Positions 7,748-33,130 of a stretch of 49,369 bases of DNA are shown here, piece after piece. A program made the translations under genes and the position numbers. The notes beneath the pieces are model-generated. The model had not been told where the DNA came from, did no database searches, and saw only the letters and a list, made by a program, of their open reading frames with translations. The DNA comes from an uncultured Lachnospiraceae bacterium (GTDB taxonomy: Bacteria; Bacillota; Clostridia; Lachnospirales; Lachnospiraceae). Every line of letters begins with the position of its first letter. Within the stretch, counting starts at the first letter, position 1. The stretch lies in NCBI GenBank assembly GCA_947625015.1, contig CANQMR010000025.1, positions 1 to 49,369 on the forward strand, written 5' to 3'.

Positions 7748-8295
7748 CAACCCCTTCTCCCCTTTCTATATACCATGGCCCCCGGCGGATATCTTTCTGT
7801 TATCTTTAAGTTTTTATTTGTGAAACCGCCGCCGGATAATCCTTTCCCATTTTCCCGCACTGCCATCGGTTTTAAGAAATCCTGCTGCCGGGCCCTCCTG
7901 CATATTAGATTGCACGTGCTTACGAAGAACTCGCACCGGGAAGGGGTGGCTGGGAAACATTTGCAGCCCCTTTGAAAACGCCGGTACTTGCGAAGGCCCT
8001 TTGACATATTTGCCATTAAGTATATGATGAACAGGGCCTTCGCTTATGTACCGCTGCGTTTTCGACAGAGCGCAAGCGTGGCTGCATAATGTTTGCCCAG
8101 CACCCCAAACCCGGCGCTCAGACACTTCTTCGCACGTGCAATATGCAGGAGGGCCCGGCAGCGGATTTCTAAAAAACCGCGTGTCGGGAAAATCGGGATA
8201 AGGATTACCTTGCGGCGGTAATCCACGAATATTCCGAAAGATAACAGAAAGATATCCGCCGGGGCCGGAAGGGTTTATGAAAAGGGGAGAAAGAG
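7748..8295. repeat. Giant foldback (inverted-repeat) element, copy 1
   Basis: This approximately 0.55 kb gap between the Gx transporter gene and the rnf promoter is one long imperfect palindrome. Outer arms: a 28-bp perfect inverted repeat at 7780-7807 and 8237-8264, with weaker similarity out to about 7751 and 8292. Inner stem: 11 bp perfect, GCGAAGGCCCT (7990-8000) with AGGGCCTTCGC (8033-8043), loop 32 nt. Between them the two arms (about 7835-8000 and 8033-8214) match with small insertions and mismatches. Copy 2 is at 32655-33130. Open frames of about 100 codons cross it, but I do not regard them as genes. No target-site duplication or transposase was seen. Confidence 0.9.
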
Positions 8296-8303
8296 TTATA
8301 GGA

Positions 8304-8804
8304 TTAGTTTTGAGGGAAATTTTTGAAGTGCCATTTGATTAGGAGGTGGCTTAAGTAGCCGACAAGCAGACCGGAAAGGATGCCGGAAATGCAGAGGACT
8401 GGGAGGTAATAGAAGATGGCTGCATTTTCCATGACAAATACTGCGGCTATGATTTGGCCTGCATTGTGGGATACTGCTCCTGCCATGCTGACGCCCAATA
8501 TGGAAAAAAGGGGGTATCGTTTTAAGATGGCCATGACAAGCAGACAGCAGACGCCTCCCATAAGGCCGTAAAGAATACCTGTAACTCCGGAATATAAAAA
8601 GCCTGCCATTGTTACCCGCAACAGCATAATAAAAAATGCCTGTTTCCCGCCATAGCGGTACAAAACAAGCATAGTTACAATATTCGCAAGCCCGATCTTC
8701 ACTCCCGGCACAGCCGCCATCACCGGCAGCAGACTCTCTAAATAGCCGAGAACCAGGGAAATGGAAAGCAGCATACCTAATTGTGTAATCTGTTTCGTCT
8801 TCAT
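8304..8804 (-). CDS. Gx transporter family membrane protein
   Basis: A 166-residue protein with five or six membrane helices and many glycines (GVKIGLANIVTMLVLYRYG near residues 34-52; GILYGLMGGVCCLL near 76-89). It matches the family called Gx transporter or heptaprenyl diphosphate synthase component I, which resembles the substrate-binding S component of ECF transporters. The substrate is not established. It is the last gene of the run fabH-to-Gx, 21 nt after the NusG domain II gene, a pairing often found beside Rnf or flavin-based electron-transfer genes. Its stop lies just beside the foldback element, which would form its 3' untranslated end. Confidence 0.85.
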   Translation of the reverse strand: MKTKQITQLGMLLSISLVLGYLESLLPVMAAVPGVKIGLANIVTMLVLYRYGGKQAFFIMLLRVTMAGFLYSGVTGILYGLMGGVCCLLVMAILKRYPLFSILGVSMAGAVSHNAGQIIAAVFVMENAAIFYYLPVLCISGILSGLLVGYLSHLLIKWHFKNFPQN

Positions 8805-8825
8805 AAGTTGTACCTTCCATGCATC

Positions 8826-9206
8826 TTAATTGTCTATATCCTTCTCTTTGCCGGACGCAACCTCAATAAACACCTGATTGGGCAGGCATATGATGGTTTC
8901 TCCGTCTTTTGAAGCCGGTTTGTGGCGGACGCAGATCTGATCCGGACAGCTGGCGCTTTCCATATATACGGCATGATCCTTAATGACAATCCTGTTATAT
9001 GCATCTGTTCCATTATCGGCGCCAATGGAAATTTCCCTGTCGTCTTTCAAAGAATATACCGTCTCATTTCCATTAACTGTAACATATACCCAATCCCCCT
9101 GTTTTTTCCAGCCCGCCGACACACACAAAAATGCCGCCGCTGCCAGAATAAGCAACAGGATTCCTACATCCCCTTTTTTTATGAGAGAGTTCCGCATTAT
9201 ATCCAT
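8826..9206 (-). CDS. NusG domain II-containing membrane-anchored protein
   Basis: A 126-residue protein with one N-terminal membrane helix (VGILLLILAAAAFLCVSAGW, about residues 14-33) and an extracytoplasmic NusG domain II fold. The typical pieces are the VTVNGNETVYSL strand and the SASCPDQICVRH segment followed by IICLPNQVFIEV; the paired cysteines in SCPDQIC are characteristic. It is not a transcription factor despite the family name. Such proteins occur next to Gx transporters and ApbE in redox loci. Start 9206 has AAGGG seven nt upstream. Function unknown. Confidence 0.85.
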   Translation of the reverse strand: MDIMRNSLIKKGDVGILLLILAAAAFLCVSAGWKKQGDWVYVTVNGNETVYSLKDDREISIGADNGTDAYNRIVIKDHAVYMESASCPDQICVRHKPASKDGETIICLPNQVFIEVASGKEKDIDN

Positions 9207-9229
9207 GCATTTTCCCTTACAACATCATC

Positions 9230-10303
9230 TTACTTAACCAGTTCATATCCATCTGCCTTAAGCCGGAATTTTTTCCGCAGACCATCTGTGACATATATTT
9301 TTTTCTGAGCAGTGATAAATATTGCCTCTGCACCCTTTTCCTGCACATATTTCAATCCATTTTCCAACCCCATGACAAAACATGCTGTTGACAAAATGTC
9401 CGAATCAATCCCACTGCTGCTGACAACCGTTACTGATATCAGTCCATTGTCGGCAGGATAACCTGTAGCAGGATCTAAAATATGATGATACCGCTTTCCA
9501 TCCTGTTCAAAATATTTTTCATAATCTCCGGAGGTGGATATAATTTTATTACCTTCAGTATCAATTATTCCAACCACTTCTCCGTCCTTGTCTCTGGGAT
9601 CCTGAATCCCTATATGCCAATCTTTGTTATCGCCTTTATTTCCATAAGCCAAAATACTGCCGCCGATTGAGATAACCGCTCCCTGGACCTGTGTATTTTT
9701 TAACAGTTCGGCCACTTCATCACAGGCAATTCCCTTACCTGATGCGCCAAAATCCAATGCCATATTTTCTCCATGCAAAATGACGCCGGTGTCCACTACT
9801 TCTACATCATCCGTATTCACAGCCTTTAATGCATCCTCTATGGCATTTGGTTCCGGAACGACATTGCCATGCTCCTCGATTTTCCATACATCAACCAGCG
9901 GACGAATACAGGGAGAATACGCGCCGTCCGTCTCTTCCGATATCTGAATTTCCCTTTTTAAATATTTCAAAACATTAGGCGATAACGGATATATTCCGTC
10001 TACTGCATAATTGGCATTGCATTTTGATATTTCCGAATCTGCTATCCGGATAGAAATCTGCTTTTCCAAACTTCCAATACAATCATCAATTTGTTTATTT
10101 ACCTGGTCGCTTTGATTAATATCTTCAGCATAAATTGTTTTCTTAAGCGCGGTTCCCATCGCCGTTCCGGCATAGGTCTCAGACTGTACGTCCATGTCCC
10201 GCAGCCGGTTCATCCTGACGCCAAAATATACCATGGCGCCGATAAACACAAAAGCAACCACCGCTGTAATTAAATGCCTGTACTTTGCAAAAAATCTTAT
10301 CAT
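9230..10303 (-). CDS. apbE: FAD:protein FMN transferase (ApbE family)
   Basis: A 357-residue enzyme that transfers FMN from FAD to a Thr in target proteins outside the membrane. An N-terminal anchor (ITAVVAFVFIGAMVYFGV, about residues 12-29) is followed by the ApbE domain: ALDFGASGKGIACDEVAELL, then ISIGGSILAYG, and the STSGDYEKYF...HHILDPATGYPADNG region that binds FAD and Mg2+. Its start is 5 nt after the fabZ stop, so it is translated from the fatty-acid operon. Likely clients in the window are RnfG (SGAT motif) and RnfD (TTATPL motif). Identification is secure; client assignment is inference. Confidence 0.95.
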   Translation of the reverse strand: MIRFFAKYRHLITAVVAFVFIGAMVYFGVRMNRLRDMDVQSETYAGTAMGTALKKTIYAEDINQSDQVNKQIDDCIGSLEKQISIRIADSEISKCNANYAVDGIYPLSPNVLKYLKREIQISEETDGAYSPCIRPLVDVWKIEEHGNVVPEPNAIEDALKAVNTDDVEVVDTGVILHGENMALDFGASGKGIACDEVAELLKNTQVQGAVISIGGSILAYGNKGDNKDWHIGIQDPRDKDGEVVGIIDTEGNKIISTSGDYEKYFEQDGKRYHHILDPATGYPADNGLISVTVVSSSGIDSDILSTACFVMGLENGLKYVQEKGAEAIFITAQKKIYVTDGLRKKFRLKADGYELVK

Positions 10304-10308
10304 ATTTC

Positions 10309-10734
10309 CTACCCAATCATAAATGTGATTTCCGCCTTACAGGCAACCTTGCCGTTCACCGTAGCCGTAACTGCGCCAACACCCAAAGGCCCCTTCATCT
10401 TAATAATCTCACACTCCAGATCTAAACGGTCTCCGGGAACCACCTTCTGTTTGAACTTAGCGCTGCTTACTCCGGCAAAATAAGCGGTCTTTCCCTTATT
10501 CTCCTCCTGGGAAAGAACTGCCACAGCGCCCAACTGGGCCAAAGCCTCTAACTGCAACACGCCCGGCATAACCGGTTCTTCAGGAAAATGCCCTGCAAAA
10601 TAGGGCTCGTTATACGAAATATTCTTATATCCTTTTATGGATTTTCCCGGCACCATCTCCGTCACATGGTCAATCAGCAAAAAAGGCTGCCTGTGAGGAA
10701 TAATTTCCATAATCTGTTTGATATCCAACTCCAT
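10309..10734 (-). CDS. fabZ: 3-hydroxyacyl-[acyl-carrier-protein] dehydratase FabZ
   Basis: A 141-residue hot-dog-fold dehydratase of type II fatty-acid synthesis, removing water from (3R)-hydroxyacyl-ACP. The active-site stretch GHFPEEPVMPGVLQLEALAQ (about residues 48-67) contains the catalytic His and the Glu on the following helix. PHRQPFLLIDHV near the start is also diagnostic. It is 22 nt behind fabF and 5 nt before apbE in one run. Length is normal. Confidence 0.97.
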   Translation of the reverse strand: MELDIKQIMEIIPHRQPFLLIDHVTEMVPGKSIKGYKNISYNEPYFAGHFPEEPVMPGVLQLEALAQLGAVAVLSQEENKGKTAYFAGVSSAKFKQKVVPGDRLDLECEIIKMKGPLGVGAVTATVNGKVACKAEITFMIG

Positions 10735-10756
10735 ATTTTTATCCTCTCTAAATCAA

Positions 10757-11998
10757 TCAGTCTTTATACTTTCTGACAGCTAAGGTTGCATTGTGTCCGC
10801 CAAAACCTAAAGAATTGGAAAGGCAGACATCCACATCCGTATTGACGCCCTTGTCCTTGACATAGTTCAATGAAAATTCCTCCGGGTCCTCTACCTCGCG
10901 AAGTCCCACATTTTCATGGACATAGCCTGTCTCAATGGATTTTACACAGGTGATAAACTCAACGCCGCCGGCAGCGCCCAACAGATGGCCTACCATGGAT
11001 TTGGTGGAACTGATAAGCGGCTTATTCTGGGCGTCGCCCATAGCTATCTTAATGGCTCTTGTCTCAAATAAATCATTGTGGTGGGTGGAAGTTCCATGCG
11101 CGTTTATGTAATCGACCTCCGAAGGCTTTACTCCTGCATCCTGCATGGCAAAAATCATGGCGTTGGCCGCTCCCATGCCGTCCTCTGCCGGAGAGGTAAT
11201 ATGGTAAGCGTCTGAGGTTGCCCCATAGCCGACCACCTCTGCAAGAATCTTGGCCCCTCTCGCCTTTGCATGCTCTAACTCCTCTAAGATTACCACACCG
11301 GCTCCCTCTCCTAACACAAAACCTGCCCGGTCCTTGTCAAACGGAATGGATGCCCGGCTAATATCCTCCGTTGTGTTTAACGCCGTCAGCGCTGAAAATC
11401 CGCCTACGCCAATGGGCGCTACGCAGGCTTCCGTACCGCCTGCCACCATAACGTCTGCATCCCCATACTGAATGGTTCTGAATGCTTCGCCGATATTATG
11501 GGTACCTGTTGCGCATGCCGTTACCACATTGATGGATTTTCCCTTCAGTCCAAAATAAATGGAAACATTGCCGCACGCCATATTCGAAATCATCATCGGA
11601 ATTGCCAGAGGCTCAATACGGTTCGGTCCCTTATCAACCAAACGACGATCATTGCGGACAATAGCCTGAAGACTTCCTGTGCCGGAACCGACAGCCGTAC
11701 CTACCCGGTAAGGATCTTCCTGTTCCATATCAAGACCTGCCTGTTCTATGGCTTCCTTAGCAGCAGCCACCGCATACTGTGAGAATACCTCCATACGCTT
11801 TGCTGCTTTTGCGTCCATATAATCCTTTGCCACAAATCCCTGAACCTCCGCTGCTAACTTCGCTTTAAAATCTGTGGCGTCAAACTTGGTAATCGGCGCA
11901 ATGCCTACCTTGCTGGCCTTTATTCCCTCCCAAAATTCATCTACACTTAAACCAATCGGGGTAATGGCCCCCATACCTGTCACTACAACTCGTCTCAT
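10757..11998 (-). CDS. fabF: 3-oxoacyl-ACP synthase II (FabF)
   Basis: A 413-residue beta-ketoacyl-ACP synthase II that elongates acyl-ACP with malonyl-ACP. It begins RRVVVTGMGAITPIGLS, as the family does. The nucleophilic Cys is in VTACATGTHNIGEAFR near residue 163; the two catalytic His are in NAHGTSTHHND near residue 304 and KSMVGHLLGAAGG near residue 340. It ends GFGGHNATLAVRKY. The start has AAGGAGA seven nt upstream. It follows fabG by 35 nt. Confidence 0.97.
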   Translation of the reverse strand: MRRVVVTGMGAITPIGLSVDEFWEGIKASKVGIAPITKFDATDFKAKLAAEVQGFVAKDYMDAKAAKRMEVFSQYAVAAAKEAIEQAGLDMEQEDPYRVGTAVGSGTGSLQAIVRNDRRLVDKGPNRIEPLAIPMMISNMACGNVSIYFGLKGKSINVVTACATGTHNIGEAFRTIQYGDADVMVAGGTEACVAPIGVGGFSALTALNTTEDISRASIPFDKDRAGFVLGEGAGVVILEELEHAKARGAKILAEVVGYGATSDAYHITSPAEDGMGAANAMIFAMQDAGVKPSEVDYINAHGTSTHHNDLFETRAIKIAMGDAQNKPLISSTKSMVGHLLGAAGGVEFITCVKSIETGYVHENVGLREVEDPEEFSLNYVKDKGVNTDVDVCLSNSLGFGGHNATLAVRKYKD

Positions 11999-12033
11999 GT
12001 CAATCTCCTTTTTGTATATATTATATATATCGT

Positions 12034-12774
12034 TTACATGCTCATTCCGCCGTCAACGCAGATTACCTGTCCGGTTATGTAAGCTGCCCTGTCGGACGCT
12101 AAAAAAGCAACGGTCTCCGCCACATCTTTTACATCCCCTAAGCGTTTCATTGCGATATGATCCGCCACCTGTTTCTTTGCCTCCTCCGGCATGGCGTCTG
12201 TCATCTCCGTCACAATGAAACCGGGAGCAACTGCATTGACAGTGATGCCTCTTGAACCTAACTCCTTGGCTACGGATTTGGTGATACCAATCACCCCGGC
12301 CTTAGAGGCAGAATAATTCACCTGACCGCCGTTGCCGTAGATTCCTACCACACTGGAAAGATTGATAATATGCCCGCCCTTTTGCTTTAACATCTGGCGG
12401 GATATATGTTTGATGCAGTTAAAGGTTCCCTTCAGGTTGGTATCCAATACTGCGTCGTAGTCCGCCTCGGACATCTTCATCAAAAGACCGTCTCTGGTAA
12501 TACCGGCGTTGTTGACTAAAATGTCAATTCTGCCGTACTGGGCAACCAATTCCTTCATCATGGTTTCCACAGCCCCGTAATCGGAAATGTTACAGCCGTA
12601 CACAGAGGCTTCTCCGCCCTGTTCTTTAATCATTGCTGCAACTTCCTCTGCTTTTTCCTTGCTGCCATTATAATTGACGATAACCGATGCGCCATACTGT
12701 GCCAAAGTCAGGGCAATCTGCCTTCCAATGCCCCTGCCTGCGCCGGTTACCAATGCCACCTTACCTGTTAACAT
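12034..12774 (-). CDS. fabG: 3-oxoacyl-[acyl-carrier-protein] reductase FabG
   Basis: A 246-residue short-chain dehydrogenase that reduces 3-oxoacyl-ACP with NADPH. The nucleotide-binding motif [12 protein letters not shown] is at residues 10-21, NNAGITRD near 88-95, and the catalytic Ser-Tyr-Lys set is in the [20 protein letters not shown] stretch (about 137-156). GAVETMM to [10 protein letters not shown] and the end [12 protein letters not shown] are typical. It lies 9 nt after fabD within the fab operon, which supports FabG over other members of the large family. Confidence 0.96.
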
Positions 12775-12783
12775 AGCGCCTCC

Positions 12784-13710
12784 TTACAAGCCTAATGCTT
12801 CCTTTACTTTATCCAAATCCTCATACTTATCTACATTGACAATCGTTACTTCTCTGTTAATCTTCTTGACGAAGGAAGACAATGTCTTTCCCGGTCCAAT
12901 CTCCACAAAGGTGTCCACGCCGTCCGCTAACATTGTCTCCACGCATTGAATCCATTTTACGGAGTTAGAGACCTGCGTTGCGAGCAGATTTTTCACCTCG
13001 CCCTTGTCCGTCACCATTCCTCCGGTGACATTGGTGACATAGGGAATGGCGATATCATGAATCTCCACATGTTCAAGCTCCTTCGCCAGCTTTTCACCGG
13101 CGCCCTTTAACATGGGGGAATGGAACGGGCCGCTGACATTTAACGGGATGCATCGCTTAGCCCCTGCTTCCTTTAGCAGCTCACAGGCCTTATCCACTGC
13201 CGCCTTCTCGCCGGAAATGGCAATCTGCCCCGGACAGTTGTAGTTGGCAATGCCTACTATGCCGTCTACCTTTTTCAGGACCTCTAAAATCTTATCGGCG
13301 TCCATGGCAATAACCGCCGCCATGCCACCCTGTCCTGCCGGGACCTCATCCTGCATATAAATCCCGCGCTTTCTGACAACCTTTGCGCAATCTTCAAAAT
13401 CCATAACCCCGGAAGCCACCAGGGCAGAATACTCTCCGAGGGACAATCCTCCGGTCACATCCGGCTTCACGCCTAAATCCAACACCGCCTGCAACATGGC
13501 TACCTCTGCTGTCAGCATCGCAATCTGCGTATATTCCGTAATGTTGATATTCTCATTCTCCTCAAAGCAGAGCGCCTCGATGTCTAATCCGCAAGCCTTA
13601 GAAGCCGCCTCAAATATGGCTTTGCTCTTTTCATTCCGGTCATAGAATTCCTTTCCCATTCCCACATACTGCGCCCCCTGTCCGGGGAACATAAATGCAA
13701 TCTTACCCAT
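12784..13710 (-). CDS. fabD: Malonyl CoA-acyl carrier protein transacylase FabD
   Basis: A 308-residue enzyme that loads malonyl from CoA onto ACP. The start FMFPGQGAQYVGMG and the nucleophile elbow GLSLGEYSALVASG (catalytic Ser near residue 88) are diagnostic; the partner His is in VSGPFHSPML near residue 197. It lies between fabH and fabG. The gene for its partner ACP is not in this cluster. Confidence 0.97.
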   Translation of the reverse strand: MGKIAFMFPGQGAQYVGMGKEFYDRNEKSKAIFEAASKACGLDIEALCFEENENINITEYTQIAMLTAEVAMLQAVLDLGVKPDVTGGLSLGEYSALVASGVMDFEDCAKVVRKRGIYMQDEVPAGQGGMAAVIAMDADKILEVLKKVDGIVGIANYNCPGQIAISGEKAAVDKACELLKEAGAKRCIPLNVSGPFHSPMLKGAGEKLAKELEHVEIHDIAIPYVTNVTGGMVTDKGEVKNLLATQVSNSVKWIQCVETMLADGVDTFVEIGPGKTLSSFVKKINREVTIVNVDKYEDLDKVKEALGL

Positions 13711-13730
13711 CCTTTCTTATCCTCCCAATT

Positions 13731-14777
13731 CTATTCTTCTGTATCCTGCATTTCATTTTCCGCCCCATCTGCATCCTCTGATTCCTCGTCGTCGGTAATC
13801 TCCGGCGTCGGCATGCTCCACTCTAAAAGCTGGGCTCCCCAGGTAAGACCGCCGCCAAAGCCGCACAGAACCAGCTTATCCCCCGGTTTTAACATGGCGC
13901 TCCGGTTCATCTCATCTAAGAGAATCGGAATGGATGCGCTGGAGGTATTGCCGCAATGCTCAATATTCATCGGGAATTTCTCAATGGGAATCTCCATCTT
14001 ATTGGAGACAGAGGCAACAATTCTGGCGTTTGCCTGATGCAGCACAAAATAAGTAACATCCTCTTTGCTCATATTGGCCCGCTGCAAAAGCACATCAATG
14101 CAGGCCGGAACCTTACGGACGGCAAACTTAAAAATGTCCGGTCCAATCATCTGGATATAATGCTTATCCTCTGTCTTCTTATTGAGGAAATTCCTGGTTG
14201 AGCGCTCCTTGCATTTTAGAGACATTCCCTTTGAGCCGTCGCTCCTTGTCACACTGCTCAATATTCCCTGTTCCCGCTCCGTAACAATGGCCGCACCGGC
14301 GCCGTCGGCAAATAAAATGCAGGTTGAACGGTCCTTCCAGTCCACCATCTTAGACAGGGTTTCGGAACCGATAATGAGCGCCGTCTTTGCCAGACCGGCA
14401 GTAATATAGGCGTCAGCCGTCTGTAAGGCATAGACAAAACCGGAGCAGGCGGCATTTAAGTCAAAACAGGTGGCGTTCACCGCGCCAATCTTATCCTGAA
14501 CGATACAGGACATACTCGGCGTTGCCCGTTCCGGTGAAAGGGTTGCCAGTATAATCAAATCAATCTCCTTGGGATCGATTCCCGCATTTTCAATGGCTGC
14601 CAAAGCCGCTTCCGTCGCCATATAGGAAGTAGTCTCGTCCGTTGCGATATGACGCTCCACAATTCCTGTGTGCTCCCTGATCCATTCATCATCTGTCTTT
14701 ACCATCTTTGCCAGCTCATTGTTATCAATGATTGTCGGCGGTAAAAAACTCCCCGTACCAATAATTCCTGTAGCCAT
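13731..14777 (-). CDS. fabH: 3-oxoacyl-ACP synthase III (FabH) with acidic tail
   Basis: The initiating condensing enzyme of fatty-acid synthesis, joining acyl-CoA and malonyl-ACP. Catalytic Cys in DLNAACSGFVYAL (near residue 113), His in FVLHQANARIV (near 250) and Asn in EHCGNTSSASIP (near 280) are all present. The last 25 or so residues (EITDDEESEDADGAENEMQD) form an acidic tail beyond the usual end at GGGLTWGAQLLEW. The ATG at 14777 is used because AGAGG lies six nt upstream; that ribosome site would be inside the gene if 14798 were the start. First gene of the fab operon, behind a consensus promoter. Confidence 0.96.
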   Translation of the reverse strand: MATGIIGTGSFLPPTIIDNNELAKMVKTDDEWIREHTGIVERHIATDETTSYMATEAALAAIENAGIDPKEIDLIILATLSPERATPSMSCIVQDKIGAVNATCFDLNAACSGFVYALQTADAYITAGLAKTALIIGSETLSKMVDWKDRSTCILFADGAGAAIVTEREQGILSSVTRSDGSKGMSLKCKERSTRNFLNKKTEDKHYIQMIGPDIFKFAVRKVPACIDVLLQRANMSKEDVTYFVLHQANARIVASVSNKMEIPIEKFPMNIEHCGNTSSASIPILLDEMNRSAMLKPGDKLVLCGFGGGLTWGAQLLEWSMPTPEITDDEESEDADGAENEMQDTEE

Positions 14778-14815
14778 AGTAACCTCTTTTCTTCTCATAT
14801 TAAAATAACGACAAA

Positions 14816-14849
14816 ATAATAGACTTATGACCTGTTATGTGTCTATTAT
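14816..14849 (-). promoter_or_regulatory. Inverted repeat in the fabH leader (operator candidate)
   Basis: ATAATAGAC (14816-14824) and GTCTATTAT (14841-14849) form 9-bp perfect arms around 16 nt, which reads TTATGACCTGTTATGT on the plus strand. The central ACCTG with flanking TTAT/TTAT loosely recalls a FapR-type lipid operator, but the match is partial. It lies 12 to 45 bp downstream of the -10 box. Confidence 0.4.
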
Positions 14850-14860
14850 CATCTGATAGA

Positions 14861-14889
14861 ATTATATTGAAAAACTTATCCTTTGTCAA
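14861..14889 (-). promoter_or_regulatory. fabH operon promoter
   Basis: Perfect consensus on the minus strand: TTGACA (14884-14889), 17 bp, TATAAT (14861-14866). It lies directly after the stop codon of the 101-residue gene and drives fabH and probably everything through the Gx transporter. Confidence 0.85.
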
Positions 14890-14898
14890 CAATAAATA

Positions 14899-15204
14899 CT
14901 ACTCCTTCAGTTCCTCCGTTTCCACCAAAGCCAGCTTCTCCTGTAGGTTTTTGATGCGCACATTGATGGTGTCAATCTGGGACACAAACTGGTCTAATGC
15001 CTCGTCGATATTATCTCCCTGCTTTCTGGCAATATAGACGTCCATTCCCATCTGGGTAAAGAGCTTATTCTTGTCATTGTTGTAGCCCCTGATTTTGCTC
15101 TTTAAGTCGTTGACCGTCGCTAACCTCTTAGTCGTGTCCTTCGCCTTATCCATCGCATTACTTGAGGTTTCCTTAACCTTATCCAGAAAATCATTAAATC
15201 CCAT
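14899..15204 (-). CDS. Small coiled-coil protein of unknown function
   Basis: A 101-residue hydrophilic, mostly helical protein starting MGFNDFLDKVKETSSNAMDK. Two regions look coiled-coil: about residues 4-45 and 65-97 (DALDQFVSQIDTINVRIKNL). No cysteine, signal or membrane segment. The ATG at 15204 follows CAGGAGGAAGCG directly. It lies 38 nt after the GTPase fusion gene and 10 bp before the fabH -35 box. Similar small proteins followed by zinc ribbons exist in Firmicutes, but this one has no zinc ribbon; function not recognised. Confidence 0.75.
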   Translation of the reverse strand: MGFNDFLDKVKETSSNAMDKAKDTTKRLATVNDLKSKIRGYNNDKNKLFTQMGMDVYIARKQGDNIDEALDQFVSQIDTINVRIKNLQEKLALVETEELKE

Positions 15205-15242
15205 ACGCTTCCTCCTGTTCCGCAAAGTCCTAAACTCTGCTT

Positions 15243-16196: not shown

Positions 16197-16224
16197 ATCT
16201 GACATTCCTTTCCGCCATAGTTTA

Positions 16225-16245
16225 ACGCCTGACGCTAACAGGCGT
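16225..16245. other. Intergenic hairpin between the two GTPase genes
   Basis: ACGCCTG-ACGCTAA-CAGGCGT: a 7-bp perfect stem with a 7-nt loop, in the 55-nt gap between the two GTPase genes. No T-run follows, so an mRNA processing or stability element is more likely than a terminator. Confidence 0.4.
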
Positions 16246-16251
16246 CACTGG

Positions 16252-23643: not shown

Positions 23644-23655
23644 ACATTATTTTTC

Positions 23656-24413: not shown

Positions 24414-24441
24414 TGTATTCGTATCAACACAGGTATAATGC

Positions 24442-25992
24442 TTACTTTGCATAGTCTATCACGCGGGACTCGCGGATCAGATTAACCTTAATCTGTCCCG
24501 GATATTCCAGCTCGCTTTCAATCTGCTGGGAAATATCCCTTGCAAGAAGCACCATATCAGAATCACTAATCTGCTCAGGAACTACCATAATACGAATCTC
24601 TCTACCTGCCTGAATAGCAAAAGTTTTATCAACACCTTTGAAACTGTTGGCGATATCTTCTAACTGTTTCAATCTGGTGGTATATGTCTCCAATGTTTCT
24701 CGCCTTGCACCTGGACGGGCGGCAGATATTGCATCTGCTGCCTGTACAATACAGGCGATCAAAGATTCCGGTTCTACATCTCCATGATGCGCTTCCACTG
24801 CGTTAATCACCAGCGGGGACTCTTTGTACTTTCTACACAAGTCCACACCAATCTGAATATGAGAACCTTCCATCTCATGATCCACAGACTTACCAATATC
24901 ATGTAAAAGACCGGCTCGCTTAGCCATGCGAACATCCACACCAATCTCAGCCGCCAATAAACCACTTAACTGGGCAACTTCCATTGAGTGTTTCAATGCG
25001 TTCTGTCCGTAGCTTGTCCTGAATTTCATCTTACCAAGCAGACGAACCAATTCGGGATGGATTCCCTGCACACCGACTTCAAGGGTGGCATTTTCTCCTT
25101 CCTCACGCATAGTCTGTTCCACTTCTTTCTGGGCTTTCTCTACCATCTCTTCAATTCTTGCAGGATGGATTCTTCCATCTACAATTAATTTCTCAAGGGC
25201 AATTCTTGCCACTTCTCTTCTTACCGGATCAAAGCTGGAAAGAATAACTGCTTCCGGTGTATCGTCAATAATCAATTCCACACCGGTCATGGTCTCTAAG
25301 GTCCGGATATTCCTTCCCTCACGTCCAATGATTCTTCCCTTCATCTCATCATTCGGTAATTGTACCAAAGAAATCGTAGTCTCGGCAACATGGTCAACGG
25401 CGCACTTTTGAATCGCTGTCACCACATATTCCTTTGCCTTCTTACCTGCCTCTTCTTTTGCTCTGGTCTCTAATTCCTTAACCAGAACTGCGGTTTCATG
25501 CTTTACTTCATCTTCAACAGTCTTTAACAAATAATCTTTTGCTTGTTCAGAGGTTAATCCAGAGATTCTCTCCAGTTCCTGTAGTCTCTTTGCTTCCAGC
25601 GTCTCTACATTTGCTTTCTGCTTCTCTAAGGCCTGTTCTCTGGATGCAAGGTTTGCTTCCTTTTTCTCGATCGTTTCCGTCTTACGGTCCAAATTCTCTT
25701 CACGAGAAAGAATACGCTTTTCCATTCTCTGAACCTCATTACGACGATCCCTAATCTCTTTATCAAGATCATTCTTCGTCTTAATGGATTCTTCCTTTGC
25801 TTCCAGGAGAATTTCCTTCTTCTTGGCCTCAGCACTCTTTACGGCTTCATCTATAATCTCTCTCGCTCTGTCCTCTGCATCTGCATTCCTTTTCTCCACT
25901 ACATTCTTACGATATGTAATGGTCAGGAAACAAGTCAGAATCACAGCTACGATTAAAATAATAGCAAAAACAATAAGATTGCCTATTTCCAC
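24442..25992 (-). CDS. rny: Ribonuclease Y
   Basis: A 516-residue membrane-anchored endoribonuclease that starts mRNA decay. In order: N-terminal helix ([19 protein letters not shown]), long coiled coil (about residues 30-190), KH domain with [15 protein letters not shown] (near 222), and HD domain with the metal-binding pair in [12 protein letters not shown] (near 364). It ends [15 protein letters not shown], as the family does. The start codon is GTG at 25992, with AAGGAGG nine nt upstream. It has its own promoter and terminator, so it is probably a single-gene transcript between recX and spoIIM. Confidence 0.97.
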
Positions 25993-26014
25993 AGGAGCAC
26001 CTCCTTATTCAGTT

Positions 26015-26069
26015 ATAATGCACTTAACATAAATGCAACAGTTAGATTGTATCTTTTTTTGTGCATTAT
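26015..26069 (-). promoter_or_regulatory. 9-bp inverted repeat around the rny start region
   Basis: ATAATGCAC (26015-26023) and GTGCATTAT (26061-26069) are perfect inverted copies separated by 37 bp. One arm touches the -35 box; the other is in the leader. This could be a paired operator. Confidence 0.35.
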
Positions 26070-26074
26070 GTCAA
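26046..26074 (-). promoter_or_regulatory. rny promoter
   Basis: Minus strand: TTGACA (26069-26074), 17 bp, TACAAT (26046-26051), about 54 bp before the GTG start. Confidence 0.75.
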
Positions 26075-26092
26075 GTAAATCTGTGGAAATTA

Positions 26093-26704
26093 TTAAACCT
26101 GTATATTTTGCTCCCCGTTAAAAACCGCTTCTACTGCCGCGTAATCAAAACCTTTGCTATAAAAATACCGGTATACCTTCTGTCTTATTACAGGATTTTG
26201 TAAATCTTTACCCCGGGTATATTTTCTAAACTGTCGGAGCAGGCTTGCCTGCTCCGAAAACTCATGTTTTTCAAAAAAATCACGAACCATTTCCCTGTCA
26301 GCGCCTTTGCGCATTAACTCATATTCTATCTGCCTTCTGCTCTTCTTATCTTTATAGGATTCGACGTACATACGGATGTATTCCCCGTCATCTAAATAAT
26401 GATAATCTTCCAAAAATTGTATGGTTGCCAGAATAACCTCATCCGTATAGTCACTGTTTCTGAGCCGGTCACGCATCATCGCCACTGTCATAGGTCTTCG
26501 TTCCAACATATACAGCGCTCTTTCCCTTGCCCTTTTCATCAGGACTTCTTTCTGAATTATCGATATGTGTTCATCCGATAACTCCCTGCCGGCCTCAATC
26601 CCGTATTTCTTCAGTTCTTTTCCATAAAGTGCAAAGAGAAAGGTATGCTCGCCATATACCCGGTATTTGTCGCCTCTGCCCTTTTCCAGGTTTGTGATTA
26701 ACAT
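26093..26704 (-). CDS. recX: Regulatory protein RecX
   Basis: A 203-residue RecX-family protein that binds RecA filaments and limits their activity. The repeats of three-helix modules are visible: ARERALYMLERRPMTVAMMR, then FLEDYHYLDDGEYIRMYV, then YELMRKGADREMVRDFFEK. It starts 2 nt after the recA stop, with a ribosome site inside the end of recA, so it is co-translated with recA. Length is within the family range. Confidence 0.93.
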   Translation of the reverse strand: MLITNLEKGRGDKYRVYGEHTFLFALYGKELKKYGIEAGRELSDEHISIIQKEVLMKRARERALYMLERRPMTVAMMRDRLRNSDYTDEVILATIQFLEDYHYLDDGEYIRMYVESYKDKKSRRQIEYELMRKGADREMVRDFFEKHEFSEQASLLRQFRKYTRGKDLQNPVIRQKVYRYFYSKGFDYAAVEAVFNGEQNIQV

Positions 26705-26706
26705 GA

Positions 26707-27756
26707 TTACTCTTCCTCATTATGCGCAACAGCCGATAAGGAGGAAACTTCGTCTTCTTCCTTAACTAATCCGGCATGGATTCTTACTTTCTGCTCCACT
26801 TCACCGGCAATGTCCGGATGTTCTTCTAAGAATATCTTGGCATTCTCCCTGCCCTGTCCAATCTTCTCCCCCTGATAAGAAAACCAGGCACCGGATTTAA
26901 CCACAATATTATCCTTTACCGCCAGATCCAGAATGTCTCCCATTTTGGAAATCCCTTTACCAAACATAATATCAAATTCTGCTTCTTTAAAAGGAGGCGC
27001 CACTTTATTCTTAACTACCTTTACCCTGGTGCGGTTGCCAATTACTTCTCCGTTCTGTTTGAGCGTCTCGATTCGCCGTACATCCAAACGGACAGAGGAA
27101 TAAAATTTAAGCGCGCGTCCGCCGGTAGTCGTTTCCGGGTTGCCGAACATCACACCCACCTTTTCACGAAGCTGATTAATAAAAATAACTACGCAATTTG
27201 ACTTGCTAATCACTGCGGTCAGCTTCCTTAACGCCTGAGACATTAATCTTGCCTGTAGTCCTACATGCGCATCTCCCATCTCGCCGTCAATCTCGGCCTT
27301 AGGCACTAAAGCGGCTACGGAATCCACAATAATTACATCTACTGCGCCTGACCGGACCATGGTCTCGGTAATCTCTAATGCCTGTTCTCCATTATCCGGC
27401 TGGGATATGTACAAGTTGTTAATATCTACACCAATATTGCCGGCATACACCGGATCTAAAGCATGTTCTGCGTCAATAAATCCTGCTATTCCGCCATTCT
27501 TCTGTACTTCCGCCACCACATGTAATGCTACCGTAGTCTTACCGCTGGATTCCGGTCCGTATATCTCAATGATTCTTCCTTTGGGTACGCCGCCTATTCC
27601 CAGTGCCAGATCAAGACTCAAAGAACCGGTCGGGATTGCCTCTACGTTCATATTGGCTGCACTGTCCCCAAGTTTCATCACTGTTCCTTTGCCAAACTGC
27701 TTCTCAATATTTGCAAGCGCTGCATCTAATGCTTTTAATTTCTCTTCATTTGCCAT
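26707..27756 (-). CDS. recA: Recombinase RecA
   Basis: A 349-residue RecA, the strand-exchange protein and coactivator of LexA cleavage. Walker [10 protein letters not shown] near residue 66, Walker B region [16 protein letters not shown], loop segment [17 protein letters not shown] and [22 protein letters not shown] are all intact. The ATG at 27756 is preferred over 27777, because GGAGG lies nine nt upstream and family members start [14 protein letters not shown]-like. A LexA-type site sits in the promoter region. The tail is acidic (EEDEVSSL, ending HNEEE), as usual. Confidence 0.98.
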
Positions 27757-27771
27757 TATCATAACCTCCAT

Positions 27772-27784
27772 GAACATTTGTTCG
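27772..27784 (-). promoter_or_regulatory. LexA (SOS) box of recA
   Basis: CGAACAAATGTTC on the minus strand fits the Gram-positive LexA consensus CGAAC-N4-GTTCG except for its last base. It lies just downstream of the -10 box. Confidence 0.85.
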
Positions 27785-27792
27785 TTTTTCTA

Positions 27793-27821
27793 ATAATAAT
27801 ATATTTCCTGTTACTTGTCAA
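27793..27821 (-). promoter_or_regulatory. recA promoter
   Basis: Minus strand: TTGACA (27816-27821), 17 bp, TATTAT (27793-27798), with the LexA box covering the early transcribed region. Confidence 0.75.
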
Positions 27822-27827
27822 TAATAA

Positions 27828-27845
27828 ATCGAATGTATTTTCGAT
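27828..27845 (-). promoter_or_regulatory. Second, degenerate LexA-like palindrome
   Basis: ATCGAAAATACATTCGAT on the minus strand: 6-bp perfect arms. It keeps the CGAA-N6-TTCG frame of a LexA box but lacks the inner C and G. It lies just upstream of the recA -35 box. The rest of the 306-bp gap to tmcAL (to 28063) is AT-rich and shows no gene. Confidence 0.4.
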
Positions 27846-28063
27846 TGCGGGACCTCCTTGCCTGTATTATACAACCCGTCCCGGACAAACCATTGCATAT
27901 TTATAAAATTATGGAAAAAAAGAGACAACTAAGATAAAATGATATAATAAATGTATCATGTTCTTTACGAATTGTAAACAATATTATAAAATTATTGTAA
28001 TTATTATTAATTGAGCTACTCATCAACTGCTGAAATACATAACAGGCAATCAGGAGAAAGACA

Positions 28064-29278
28064 ATGAAACAAATCGGCGTAATTGCAGAATATAATCCAT
28101 TTCACAATGGCCACCAATATCAGATTAACAGCATAAAAGCACAATTTCCGGACCGGAAAATTATTGTTGTGATGAGCGGGGATTATGTCCAGCGGGGGGA
28201 ACCGGCAATTTTTCACAAATATTTACGGGCAAAATGCGCTTTAACGTGTGGAGCGGACATTATCTTTGAACTCCCCGCCCCTTTTGCCTATGCCAGCGCA
28301 GAATACTTTGCTACCGCTGCCCTTTCCGCCCTTTATGAAACCGGTCAGGTCGATACCTTATGCTGTGGAGCAGAGGATAACGAACCTGCCGTTTTTTCGG
28401 AAATAGCAGATCTTCTGCTTGACGAACCTGAATCTTACCGCATTGTCCTGAAAAAACAACTTAAAGACGGCCTTTCTTATCCCAAAGCCAGAAGCAAGGC
28501 ACTTGCCGCCTGTCTTTGCGACAACCAAATAATAGAATTATTAAATCATCCCAACAATATTCTGGCCATAGAATATATTAAGGCAGTAAAGAAATACAAA
28601 TTTCCCATTGACATCTGTATCATCAAACGCCAGGGCGCCGGGTATTATGATGGGAACCCAGACAAACCGATGTGTTCTGCATTTGCCATAAGAAAAATGC
28701 TGGCGAAAGGAAATACGGATCTTCATTCAGTCATTCCGGAAAAGGCAGTCAGGCAATTAGAAAATTCCCCTCATGCAAAACCATTATTCTGGGAGGATTT
28801 TTATCCTTTTTTACAATATGCCATCTGGGACAATTCATCTTATGCGCATTATTTTGAGATGTCAGCGTCTCTTTCCAACCGGCTAAAACATTTTGATTTA
28901 CTTCCAGCAGACCTGGCACAACTGAACACAGCGCTTTCCGGCAGACATATTACCAACACCCGCTTAAACCGGACTTTACTCAATCTGCTTCTAAAGGAAC
29001 CGTCAATATCCGATTCCGGCCAAGCCCGCTTTATTCCCTATCTGCGGCTTTTAGGGTTTAAGGAATCTGCCGGTTTCCTGCTTAAGGAAATGAAAAATAC
29101 CTGTCGGCTTCCTATAATCAATAAAGTTGCAGACGCAGAATATCTTTTGTCTGAAGCGGGCAGGGAAAGATTTCAAAAAGACATTCAAAATAACCGCCTT
29201 TACCGGCAGGTTTTTTACAACAAATACGGTATCCCGCTTCCCACCGAATATGAGCAGACTGTCATAATTGAAAAATAA
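28064..29278 (+). CDS. tmcAL: tRNA(Met) cytidine acetate ligase TmcAL
   Basis: A 404-residue nucleotidyltransferase-fold enzyme (YlbM type) that uses acetate and ATP to form N4-acetylcytidine at the wobble base of elongator tRNA-Met. The HIGH-like motif is in IAEYNPFHNGHQYQI near residues 7-21; VVMSGDYVQRGEPAIF near 35 and the RGAGYYDG-like QGAGYYDGNP segment near 188 are also typical. AGGAGAAAG precedes the ATG. It precedes ylbJ by 39 nt; in Bacillus the same two genes lie close together, which supports both calls. Confidence 0.95.
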   Translation: MKQIGVIAEYNPFHNGHQYQINSIKAQFPDRKIIVVMSGDYVQRGEPAIFHKYLRAKCALTCGADIIFELPAPFAYASAEYFATAALSALYETGQVDTLCCGAEDNEPAVFSEIADLLLDEPESYRIVLKKQLKDGLSYPKARSKALAACLCDNQIIELLNHPNNILAIEYIKAVKKYKFPIDICIIKRQGAGYYDGNPDKPMCSAFAIRKMLAKGNTDLHSVIPEKAVRQLENSPHAKPLFWEDFYPFLQYAIWDNSSYAHYFEMSASLSNRLKHFDLLPADLAQLNTALSGRHITNTRLNRTLLNLLLKEPSISDSGQARFIPYLRLLGFKESAGFLLKEMKNTCRLPIINKVADAEYLLSEAGRERFQKDIQNNRLYRQVFYNKYGIPLPTEYEQTVIIEK

Positions 29279-29317
29279 TTCCATAAAATACAATAAAGTC
29301 GTTTCCGGTGAAAATGC

Positions 29318-30196
29318 ATGAAACAGTTTGTCCTCATCATCAGCCTTTTATTTACGCTTCTCATTTTTCATAATGAAACGGTTACCGGTACGCAAAGCGG
29401 CCTTCTTCTCTGGTATCAGGTTTTAATTCCCTCGCTGCTGCCCTTTATCTTAGTTACCAATGCCTTGTCGGAAACTAACGCCTATCAGGCTGCCGCCGCC
29501 CGCTTTCAAAAATTATGCCCCGGCCGCATTTATGAAATCATGGCCATTTTTTTAGGAAATTTATGCGGTTATCCCATTGGCGGAAAAATAATAAACGATT
29601 TTGTCAACAACCGGTATATCACTGTAGACACAGCTAATCGGATTCTGTCTCTTTCCAGTCAGGCCAGCCCTATGTTTTTAATTGGATATGTCCATATGCA
29701 TATAATCAAAAGACAGCTTCCGCTGCCAATATTTCTTATCAGTATATATCTGCCTACATTTATCTTATCTCTTATTCAAAAGAAATCCAAACAGGAGATC
29801 AATATAAAAAACAATTCTTCTCCCCATTCTCTGTGCATTACCGACACCTTTTTACACGCAGTACAGACCATGGTTATGATTGGCATGTATGTCATTATTT
29901 TTTCCATTCTTCTGTCTATCCTGCTCCCGGTATGCAAAAATACCCTGTCCAGCTTTATTTTATCCTTTCTGGAAATAACGACAGGGTTAAAACTTATGTG
30001 CGCTCTTCCACTGCCTTCCGATTTAAAACTTTCCTGCCTCTGCGCGCTCTCCGCTTTCGGAGGCTTATGCAGTATGTTTCAAATCCGGGGAGTCCTCACC
30101 TTTCCAGGAGCCGGCATAAAAAAATACCTGCTGGATAAACTTTTGCTTTCCGCAGGCACTTTTTTTATTATATGGTTATATTGCCGTCTTTGTTAG
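29318..30196 (+). CDS. ylbJ: YlbJ family sporulation membrane protein
   Basis: A 292-residue integral membrane protein with about eight helices, of the nucleoside-recognition/YlbJ family needed for spore cortex formation in Bacillus. Conserved parts are LLLWYQVLIPSLLPFILVTN near residue 28, FLGNLCGYPIGGKIINDF near 79 and ILSLSSQASPMFLIGYV near 105. Length is shorter than B. subtilis YlbJ (about 400 residues, from memory), so a terminal region may be missing. The ribosome site is weak. Its stop codon abuts the stop of the convergent coiled-coil gene with no base between them. Confidence 0.8.
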   Translation: MKQFVLIISLLFTLLIFHNETVTGTQSGLLLWYQVLIPSLLPFILVTNALSETNAYQAAAARFQKLCPGRIYEIMAIFLGNLCGYPIGGKIINDFVNNRYITVDTANRILSLSSQASPMFLIGYVHMHIIKRQLPLPIFLISIYLPTFILSLIQKKSKQEINIKNNSSPHSLCITDTFLHAVQTMVMIGMYVIIFSILLSILLPVCKNTLSSFILSFLEITTGLKLMCALPLPSDLKLSCLCALSAFGGLCSMFQIRGVLTFPGAGIKKYLLDKLLLSAGTFFIIWLYCRLC

Positions 30197-31534
30197 TCAG
30201 ACTTTATCTTCCATGGAAAAATCGTCAATAACGCCTAACGATTTGGCAGGGGCGCTTATAACAGATTCTTTTCCCTCTCCGGCCGCCTTTGTATCCTCGA
30301 GCGCTTCTGCGGTTTCTTCAACCATACTTCTTCCTACTCTCGGTCCCCGCTTTATCCTGCCCTCTTGTGGCGGCACCTCTCTTGCCTGTTCTCCGTTGGC
30401 TTTATATACCGTCTTATCTACTTTAACAGCAGCAGCGGCCTCTAAAGTCTTCGCCACCGTCTCCTGGGCGGTCTGTGGCGTGTGTAATACCGGATTTCTC
30501 TTTCTTACCACCTTTTTCATTACCTTTCTTGGCTCCTGGGTACTTCCTGTGGCCGCATTGTGCGGTTCCTTACCCTTCAACTCCTCTTCCGTCGCTGTCA
30601 TTTCCTTTTCAACGCGCTTAGCGTCTACTGATTGAAGGGGTGCCTTCTGTGCGGACTGCACTGACTTTTGAGCAGATGTCTGCTTAGCCACGTCCTTCTT
30701 CGTCACAGCTTTTGCATCCGTTCCGCTGGTATCAGCGGAATCTGTATTCGTAATGAAATCAGGAATATTCACCTGCGGCGCAGCATTTTCCTTCTTTACC
30801 GCCTTTTCTTTTTCCTCTTTCTCCTTTATGGCAACTGCCTGTTTTACCCGCTGGGCCACCGTAGAGCGGACCTTAGGCTGTTCCGCCTTTACTTCCGTCC
30901 GGGCTTCCGCCTTTTTCGCTGCGGTACGCATCTGTGGCGCTTTCGTCACGCTGTTCGGATTGCCGGTAAAATCGACAATCTGGTTCTGTATCTCATTCAG
31001 GTTTGCATCTGCAATCATAAAATCATTATTCAAGGCCGTAATCAGATTTTCATAATTGGCCTGCTCCGCCTCTAAAGTCGCCTGCACATAGCTGCGGATT
31101 CCCATCATCATGTCGTTTGTGTACTGCATGGAACCTAACCGCAGTTCATTCGCCTCCGCAGACGCCTGTGCTAATATATCGTTGGCCTGCACTCTTGCCA
31201 TCTCCACCGTCTCATAGGCTTTCTGGTTTGCAAGGGCCATAACCTCCGTCTCTGAAACCATCTGCTCGGCCTTGGCGGTAGCCTCCGCAAGAATACCGTC
31301 GGCCGCCTTTCTGGCATCCATTAAAATGGCATCCTTATTCCGCATAATCTTCTTGCAGCGGTCAATCTCTGCCGGAATCTTTACCTTCAGGTCTCCAAAA
31401 AGCTCATCAAATTCATCTCTTGGAACAACCACTTTGTTTGAGGACAGTGCCGTCGTCTTGCAGCTATTTAAAAAATCCTCAATCTCATTCATCACATCTT
31501 CAATACTTCTCCTTGCCACGTTCATTTCCTCCAT
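30197..31534 (-). CDS. Coiled-coil protein (DivIVA/ATPase-E-like), downstream of coaD
   Basis: A 445-residue cytoplasmic protein, almost all helical. An N-terminal region (1-60) is followed by a long coiled coil (about 60-190: ILAEATAKAEQMVSETEVMA, AYETVEMARVQANDILAQAS). Then comes a low-complexity Lys/Ala/Glu/Thr-rich half with no clear fold. Such genes directly after coaD are common in Lachnospiraceae and are often labelled ATPase or V-type ATPase subunit E-like, but no nucleotide-binding motif is visible. A DivIVA-like scaffold role is a guess. The gene is 21 nt behind coaD. Confidence 0.75.
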   Translation of the reverse strand: MEEMNVARRSIEDVMNEIEDFLNSCKTTALSSNKVVVPRDEFDELFGDLKVKIPAEIDRCKKIMRNKDAILMDARKAADGILAEATAKAEQMVSETEVMALANQKAYETVEMARVQANDILAQASAEANELRLGSMQYTNDMMMGIRSYVQATLEAEQANYENLITALNNDFMIADANLNEIQNQIVDFTGNPNSVTKAPQMRTAAKKAEARTEVKAEQPKVRSTVAQRVKQAVAIKEKEEKEKAVKKENAAPQVNIPDFITNTDSADTSGTDAKAVTKKDVAKQTSAQKSVQSAQKAPLQSVDAKRVEKEMTATEEELKGKEPHNAATGSTQEPRKVMKKVVRKRNPVLHTPQTAQETVAKTLEAAAAVKVDKTVYKANGEQAREVPPQEGRIKRGPRVGRSMVEETAEALEDTKAAGEGKESVISAPAKSLGVIDDFSMEDKV

Positions 31535-31555
31535 TTCTTAATCCTTTGATTCGCT

Positions 31556-32035
31556 TTATGAAAAATGTTTTCTGAGTTTCTCCTCTACAAATCCGGGTAC
31601 AAAATCCGTAACATCTGTACCATACCGGGCATACTCCTTAACAATGCTGGAGCTTAGATAGGCATACTCGATACTGGTGGTCAAAAACACCGTATCAATA
31701 CTGTCCCCGCTTACCTTCCGGTTGCTCTGGGCAATCTGTAACTCATAGTCAAAATCCGTTATCGCCCGAAGCCCTCTTATAATGACGGAAATATCATTCT
31801 TCGCCATATAGTCCACCAGCAGGCCCTCAAAACTGATTACCTTCACATTATCAAATTCCCCGACTGCCTCTCTCAACATTTCCTGCCGTTCCTGCGCAGA
31901 AAATAATGGATTCTTCGCGCTGTTATTCAGCACGCCCACAATCACCTCATCAAACATCTCGGCGGAACGCTTGATGATATCTAAATGTCCATATGTAACC
32001 GGGTCAAAGCTTCCCGGATAGATTGCTCTGCTCAC
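31556..32035 (-). CDS. coaD: Phosphopantetheine adenylyltransferase
   Basis: A 159-residue enzyme for the penultimate step of coenzyme A synthesis. The nucleotidyltransferase motif TYGHLDII (family T/HxGH) is at residues 14-21, after [19 protein letters not shown] and [18 protein letters not shown] are further landmarks. The start codon is GTG at 32035, overlapping the rsmD stop in GTGA, so the two are coupled. Length is normal. Confidence 0.97.
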
Positions 32036-32604
32036 TGTCTACTCCCCGTCTGTTCCTCTTTCTCTAAAAAAATGTGTTTGTTGGTCTTGTAAATCTTCTC
32101 CTTCAGTATACGAAACCCGCTCGTCTCCTCCGGAGACAAAATGGTCTCTAAATCGGCCTCGATAATCACTAACGCCTTGTCCGATAACACCCGGTAAAAG
32201 CTTTCACTCCTAAGCACGTCCTTTTCAAGTCCTTTTCCATAGGGCGGATCCATAAACGCCACCTGAAAGGGTTCTCCACCCTGCATACGTGACAACGCTG
32301 TCAATGCAGTACAGTTGAATACCTCTGCCCGGTCCGCAAGACGGGTAAAATCCAGATTCTCCCGGATAATCTCCGCCGCCTGCCGGTTACTGTCCACAAA
32401 ACAGGCCCTCTTTGCGCCCCGGCTTAACGCTTCAATCCCGATACCGCCGCTGCCGCTGAACAGATCCAAAAAGGAAACTCCATACACTTCATCCTGTATC
32501 ATATTAAACAACGTCTCCTTAATACGGTCTGTAGTAGGCCGGGTTTCCATGCCCTTCGGCGTCTTAAGCTGTAATCGTCTCGCCGTTCCTGCAATGACTC
32601 TCAT
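32032..32604 (-). CDS. rsmD: 16S rRNA (guanine(966)-N(2))-methyltransferase RsmD
   Basis: A 190-residue methyltransferase of 16S rRNA G966. It starts [20 protein letters not shown]; the SAM site [19 protein letters not shown] is near residue 45 and the catalytic motif MDPPYGKGL near 118. The ATG at 32604 is used, because AGGGG lies six nt upstream and the family begins there; an upstream start would add 19 unrelated residues. It precedes coaD, the standard arrangement. Confidence 0.96.
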
Positions 32605-32620
32605 ACAATACCCCTTCTCT

Positions 32621-32648
32621 ATTTTATTAAAATCCCCCGATTTGTCAA
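32621..32648 (-). promoter_or_regulatory. rsmD promoter
   Basis: Minus strand: TTGACA (32643-32648), 16 bp, TAAAAT (32621-32626). Its -35 box is only 6 bp from the edge of the foldback repeat. Confidence 0.7.
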
Positions 32649-32654
32649 TAGGTA

Positions 32655-33130
32655 GCTGCATTTCTTTCTATTATCCGTAAATTTTATATTTTTGAAACCG
32701 CCCCGGGATAATCCTTTCCCATTTTCCCGCACTGCCATCGGTTTTAAGAAATCCTGCTGCCGAGCCCTCCTGCATATTAGATTGCACGCGCTTACGAAGA
32801 ACTCGCGCCGGGAAGGGGTGGCTGGGAAACATTTGCAGCCCCTTTGAAAACGCCGGTACTTGCGAAGGCCCCATTATAAATCTGTTATTCGGTATACAAT
32901 TAACAGGGCCTTCGCTTATGTACCGCTGCGTTTTCAACAGAGCGCAAGCGTGGCTGCAAAATGTTTGCCCAGCACCCCAAACCCGGCGCTCAGACACTTC
33001 TTCGCGCGTGCAATATGCAGGAGAACCCGGCAGCGGATTTCTAAAAAACCGCGTGTCGGGAAAATCGGGAAAAGGATTACCCGGGGCGGTAATTCACTCA
33101 TATTCCTGCGGATAATAGAAAGAAAGCAGC
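32655..33130. repeat. Giant foldback (inverted-repeat) element, copy 2
   Basis: A 476-bp long imperfect palindrome between the cellulase stop and the rsmD promoter. The ends pair: 32655-32677 with 33109-33130, perfect except one extra base, including 17 bp at 32661-32677/33109-33125. Inner stem: GCGAAGGCCC (32862-32871) with GGGCCTTCGC (32906-32915), loop 34 nt. The arms are nearly the same as copy 1 (I count about nine substitutions over roughly 345 nt), but the loop and the outer ends differ. It is in the same orientation as copy 1 relative to its neighbours. It occupies almost the whole gap between the two genes, and no separate gene is seen there. Confidence 0.9.

Follow-up and report, generated by a model that had tools for sequence, protein, structure and literature searches.

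What are the two long palindromes that lie at positions 7748–8295 and 32655–33131 of this DNA, a stretch of 49,369 nucleotides (the window) that makes up a single contig of the draft genome G000 (2.82 Mb) of an uncultured Lachnospiraceae bacterium? A sequence-only reading had noticed both, regarded them as a two-copy family of foldback elements and offered three explanations: a mobile element resembling the miniature inverted-repeat transposable elements (MITEs), a large structured RNA, or a terminator or barrier between transcription units. Our analysis makes it probable that they belong, as old and no longer mobile copies, to a MITE superfamily of the Lachnospiraceae, that they now recombine, and that their core is constrained as RNA.

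Both palindromes are complete foldback elements of what we call the giant class, as judged from their sequence, inverted repeats, folds and BLAST family. We describe them on the + strand, which bears the GNRA loop discussed below. In copy 1 the left outer arm (7780–7807, 28 nt) is a perfect complement of the right outer arm (8237–8264). Each strand of each copy was folded alone and compared with 100 dinucleotide shuffles. Copy 1 gave −327.5 kcal/mol (z −22.4) on the + strand and −342.8 kcal/mol (z −25.9) on the − strand, and copy 2 gave −273.8 (z −20.9) and −287.5 (z −19.9), respectively; no shuffle equalled the fold in any of the four cases. The near-complete palindromes are thus confirmed by inverted repeats and by folds on both strands, with z about −20 to −26. 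The copies differ at 22 of 375 positions over the gapless stretch 7835–8209 and at 9 of 341 without the apical loop, in good agreement with the roughly nine core substitutions in about 345 nt counted before.

A family of two exists only inside the window. BLAST located 30 giant-class loci in G000 and four more places with partial matches, a number of them close to or at the end of a contig. The genome also has at least eight shorter relatives of ~210 nt each. Two of the BLAST places turned out to be such shorter relatives, and the remaining rows were mostly the same palindromes read backwards. The sister genome G023, a draft of ~100 contigs that is 85% complete, has a similar copy number. Among the 60 genomes searched with BLAST, only G000, G023 and G014 gave matches, the last of 41 nt, and the parts that recur elsewhere are apical only (the weak G014 match and two short matches in G000). 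As a search at BLAST level reached no farther, a covariance model was needed.

The model defines a conserved core in the apical ~120 nt, located by match to model R1 at 7963–8085 in copy 1 and at 32835–32957 in copy 2. It includes a mini-stem of two base pairs that closes a GNRA tetraloop, GCAA in both copies (8070–8077 with the loop at 8072–8075, and 32942–32949 with the loop at 32944–32947). R1, which was built from 15 sequences, recovered the core in all 26 genus genomes; its raw count in G000 (75) is not used as a copy number because the palindromes match on the reverse strand too. Model R2, used for the family and phylum searches, found the core in 120 of 299 sampled Lachnospiraceae genomes, corresponding to 119 of 298 genera, and in 5 of 398 genomes across the phylum, a low rate that serves as a control for this model. 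A pattern scan of named genomes yielded at least 117 stretches, 80 of them listed, with titles mainly from the Lachnospiraceae; Blautia, Mediterraneibacter, Butyrivibrio, Oribacterium, Butyribacter and Acetatifactor are among the matches listed, and the strains with the core include Butyribacter intestini TF01-11 (L230) and Oribacterium sinus DSM 17245 (L208). The core is also present in genomes assembled into one or two contigs (G227, G239, G280 and G330).

A few occurrences of the core stand apart. A metagenome record titled Selenomonadaceae (L240) has two core matches, from misbinning or transfer, and G703, one of the five genomes from the phylum search and a member of another family, has at least nine (L297–L302), possibly through horizontal transfer. 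A tandem array of three cores with a period of 187 nt is located at G159:C21:12437–12899. In IMG/VR the exact core pattern is carried by three contigs with a viral classification (L333, L334, L335), which are possibly host DNA at provirus edges; phage and plasmid records gave no match to copy 1.

To what constraint is this core subject? We aligned it in two sets, A3 (36 rows, 35 distinct) and A4 (116 rows, 113 distinct), the latter drawn from 98 sources (19 of 20 family loci, 77 of the 80 listed pattern-scan stretches and two from G703) with three near-copies of G023 excluded. An RNA model guided the fitting of the rows in both sets, a procedure that favours covariation and RNA-type signs; so aligned, both partners vary in 26 of 31 pairs of A3 and in 28 of 30 of A4. 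The covariation score was not attained by any of 500 shuffles, and it is lost once the partner is slid along. A GNRA loop is present in 35 of 36 rows of A3 and in 110 of the 113 distinct sequences of A4, occurring as GAAA, GAGA, GCGA, GCAA, GGAA and GGGA. On the GNRA strand, G-U pairs exceed A-C mismatches by 26:8 in A3 and by 148:57 in A4. We regard the core, and not the long arms, as subject to RNA-type constraint, and favour a core that is an RNA domain carried as cargo.

In Rfam searches of the window and 20 other loci the core had no match above chance, only weak and non-significant names, in line with the earlier failure to recognise a known RNA family. The core resembles the structured RNAs of Rfam in its covariation, GNRA loop, conserved bulge and internal loop, with no fixed gene partner seen, and differs in its spread by mobile elements. 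At L145 (1128–1270), ~230 nt from a core, there is a sub-threshold match to the Rfam Clostridiales-1 RNA (40.9 bits at a cut-off of 48, E 1.4e-5).

The relatives reveal how such a core may have travelled. In genome G013 it lies inside a ~211-nt element with the ends TAGGYRNTTGCRAAA. These ends are plentiful in many of the genus genomes, with counts on the two strands of 61+47 in G020, 50+45 in G016 and 39+26 in G013, whereas reversed-control ends number 0–2 per strand in each of the 26 genus genomes; G000 has 1+1. Perfect flanking repeats of 9–13 nt surround 14 of 23 distinct two-ended elements (18 of 27 rows), as against 6 of 702 mixed flanks, and 19 of the 23 carry the core. Two insertion sequences of 1753 and 1770 bp (L139 and L140) are bounded by the same TAGGYRNTTGCRAAA ends and encode a 491-aa DUF772/DDE transposase, which makes them, on their sequence, the candidate autonomous partners of the MITE superfamily. 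The core is not tied to one type of end, since nine elements of a second class, with ends CAATGTCATTWAGTTAAG unrelated to TAGGYRNTTGCRAAA, bear it as well. Perfect flanking repeats of 9–10 nt occur in 7 of these 9 elements compared with 4 of 72 mixed flanks, two counts that are both raised by L194 and L212, which have their left flank in common and are not fully independent.

The giant class itself is a mobile type elsewhere. In G016 its members measure 516–524 nt and have TAGGYRNTTGCRAAA-type ends that are intact or slightly changed; flanking repeats are perfect in two of four (15 nt at L323 and 11 nt at L325), match at 9 of 10 positions at L324 and are absent at L326. Their alignment to the window copies extends over the core and two further stem motifs. 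One motif, AACTC / TCA(G/A)ACA, is also found in G025 and G010, and the other, TAAGAAAT / ATTTCTAAAA, occurs in this alignment of four species in the window copies and G016 alone.

Two further observations concern elements with these ends. In six elements of G013 (L079, L101, L103, L105, L107 and L110) a stretch of ~20 nt that separates the left end from the stem, to the left of the core, differs from copy to copy with a few recurring variants, and the right side is nearly constant. Elements L142 and L141, from G024 and G008, have the same TAGG ends and a different interior hairpin, without the core.

In the window's own lineage the elements behave differently. At least one flank lies beside a G023 element at 26 of the 30 loci, for L026 and L029 at just 72–81% identity over most of it; neither flank of L016, L023, L025 or L030 matches DNA next to any G023 element. 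Both flanks are found at one G023 element at 16 sites, in the same orientation at ten and in the opposite orientation at six (L010, L012, L013, L014, L019 and L027); L018/L051, with its left flank alone in normal order, is excluded from this count and from the main arm counts below. The alignments of L010 with L037 and of L012 with L040 show a reversed interior between outer arms and flanks that have not moved. Five further loci (L001, L003, L005, L006 and L007) have one flank beside one G023 element and the other flank beside another, and L042 and L046 of G023 are the reciprocal products expected of crossing over between L005 and L006. One apical loop occurs at several G023 sites (L036, L040 and L048), as exchange between copies would give. 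Orthologous short elements have the same orientation in all six pairs compared, so that flipping may characterise the giant class, the numbers being small. In this lineage the elements thus seem to invert in place and to rearrange the order of genes instead of transposing, and their persistence by recombination has good support, provided that the assemblies are correct. The proposal of a mobile foldback element holds for the family, with its terminal repeats, target duplications and matching insertion sequence, and is not established for the window copies, which have neither those ends nor a duplication and belong to a set of sites mostly shared with G023.

The outer arms differ from site to site yet stay complementary. 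Across the ten same-orientation site pairs with both flanks, 607 of 644 arm pairs are unchanged between G000 and G023; 26 have a change on one side, 11 have changes on both that preserve the pairing, and none has changes on both that abolish it. At ~4% change per side, simple arithmetic predicts about one double change. Including L018/L051 the counts are 667 unchanged, 33 one-sided, 12 both-sided and paired, and one both-sided and unpaired; for all 17 site pairs they are 979, 102, 29 (plus two to G-U) and 20, with an alignment that is unreliable in the flipped copies. One-by-one mismatches between the arms of 48 copies comprise 54 G-T and 65 A-C, which shows no RNA-strand bias. We infer that complementarity is kept by copying from arm to arm, via a process that also flips the interior, and exchange with other copies may contribute. 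The idea of a large structured RNA is accordingly half supported: the core bears signs of RNA-type constraint, and against the idea stand the lack of strand bias in the long arms and the interior flips.

A history that would unite these observations runs as follows. The ancestors of the window copies would have been moved by a transposase of the kind encoded between TAGGYRNTTGCRAAA ends; their own ends later decayed, and the copies would now persist as recombining repeats. Copying between arms would keep each hairpin complementary, crossing over between arms would flip the interior, and exchange between copies would homogenise the cores and invert chromosome segments. The core would be selected as the folded RNA of the element's + strand, travelling as the cargo of more than one MITE class.

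Several observations weigh against this account. Neither window copy has a TAGG-type end or a target duplication, the longest flanking repeats (6 and 7 nt) being at the level of random windows, as the earlier failure to see a flanking duplication had indicated, and the tie of these copies to mobile forms is made by the shared core and the shared stem motifs. The insertion sequence occurs in 2 of 26 genus genomes, not in that of the window, and does not contain the core. Its DUF772/DDE transposase matches the NCBIfam IS1182 model, at 77.5 bits with a cut-off of 270, and is IS1182-like, related to IS1182 at best. An RNA role fits poorly with the small share of G-U among the standard pairs of the core (26 of 942 in A3 and 148 of 2992 in A4), with the interior flips of the giant class and with the orientation of the core relative to genes, which is unbiased (28 sense and 25 antisense tandem). 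Flips and flank exchanges are read from draft assemblies. At L051, at a contig end in G023, the short right flank corresponds to the L018 left flank in reverse, so that the assembly may be wrongly folded back there.

Part of this evidence could be read otherwise. A protein of the host or of transposition may bind the core as a DNA hairpin or cruciform and contact its loop and bulges, with no need of RNA. The few G-U pairs, the symmetric arm mismatches and the lack of orientation bias would all suit such a structure, and GAAA-type loops are stable in DNA as well. We nevertheless consider it somewhat unlikely, given a loop that varies as GNRA does in 110 of 113 sequences and the excess of G-U over A-C on the GNRA strand in the rows aligned by the RNA model. 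The flips and exchanged flanks could be misjoins at near-identical palindromes in short-read drafts, in which case the elements would not recombine. Many copies do end at contig ends, G023 is a fragmented and incomplete draft, and L051 appears folded back. This explanation strikes us as unlikely, because both sides agree at the two aligned flipped sites with outer arms and flanks in place, and because L042 and L046 form a reciprocal pair; genomes of one or two contigs contain the core itself, not the flips. That arm complementarity is maintained by selection of single compensating mutations, for the sake of a long RNA or DNA hairpin, seems less probable still: asymmetric loops conserved in the inner stem do show selection on a part of the structure, but ~30% of the changed outer-arm pairs (11 of 37) are already compensated, far from the roughly one double change expected, and there is no bias between G-T and A-C.

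Retention by the host as bidirectional transcription terminators or barriers, the third of the original proposals, we hold to be very doubtful. The window hairpins begin directly past stop codons, and past copy 1 come a U-rich tract and the rnfC promoter. However, the neighbours of the giant loci in G000 are co-directional in 20, divergent in 5 and convergent in 1 of 26 cases (26 of the 30 loci were scored and four dropped), a context that gives such a role no support. In other genera, where 81 of 116 core loci were scored, 20 are convergent and 8 divergent, besides the 28 sense and 25 antisense tandem loci mentioned above, and plain tolerance of insertion fits these figures equally well. Repetitive extragenic palindromic (REP) sequences, in the form of BIME or REPIN repeats spread by a RAYT (Y1) transposase, are likewise numerous intergenic multi-copy palindromes. 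They are the least credible of the alternatives, since our elements are far longer and have relatives with target duplications, both unlike REPs. No Y1_Tnp match was found in G000 or G023; 13 of 26 genus genomes have one.

We return to the probable reading, a family of decayed and recombining MITEs with an RNA-constrained core, and compare it with known systems. Bacterial MITEs such as Correia/NEMIS, RUP and BOX are matched by the relatives of the window copies, which are small and non-coding and have inverted ends, target duplications and ends in common with an insertion sequence. The conserved covarying core in two classes with unrelated ends and the giant foldback form set the family apart from them, and the window copies are further distinguished by having neither family ends nor a target duplication. 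Invertible DNA (invertons), which is inverted by a site-specific recombinase, shares the in-place inversion between inverted repeats and differs in that the arms here vary from site to site. Among the literature titles seen, none seemed to describe such an element.

More tentatively, and at less than even confidence, we propose an undescribed RNA domain of ~90 nt, composed of a CU bulge, a UUA/UUAA internal loop, a GNRA mini-hairpin and a variable apical stem. Throughout the Lachnospiraceae it would be the cargo of MITE classes that are unrelated to each other, and it would be under selection for an RNA function of benefit to the element or the host; in some lineages its long foldback carriers would be invertible in place and would rearrange the chromosome. 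To our knowledge, MITEs are generally thought to lack conserved cargo, and the conservation of a folded core over 119 sampled genera within small mobile elements of differing ends is therefore unexpected. It becomes testable whether non-coding mobile DNA can spread an RNA function. With the giant copies one can gauge, in a natural setting, the flipping and co-evolution of long inverted repeats in gut bacteria and the chromosome inversions that they cause; the copies also warn that compensatory change can arise from copying between arms, not from RNA selection alone.

An empty site, which the sequence-only reading had suggested looking for along with further copies, was found at copy 1: the element is absent from the orthologous spacer in ten relatives of the genus in which both neighbours were recognised. 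This comparison covers copy 1 only; nine of the spacers, printed out, measure 40 to 248 nt, that of G003 (~200 nt) was judged from match positions, and all are too diverged for exact insertion points.

The genes that flank the window copies are ordinary. As previously described, each copy sits between genes of the minus strand, directly past the stop codon of one and before the next. Copy 1 lies between a gene for heptaprenyl diphosphate synthase component I upstream (8304–8804; Pfam Hpre_diP_synt_I) and an rnfC-type gene downstream (6312–7655; Pfam RnfC_N and Complex1_51K). Copy 2 lies between a GH5 cellulase gene upstream (33138–34655; Pfam Cellulase and CBM_2) and an RsmD-type methyltransferase open reading frame downstream (32032–32661; Pfam Cons_hypoth95), whose true start is probably nearer 32604.

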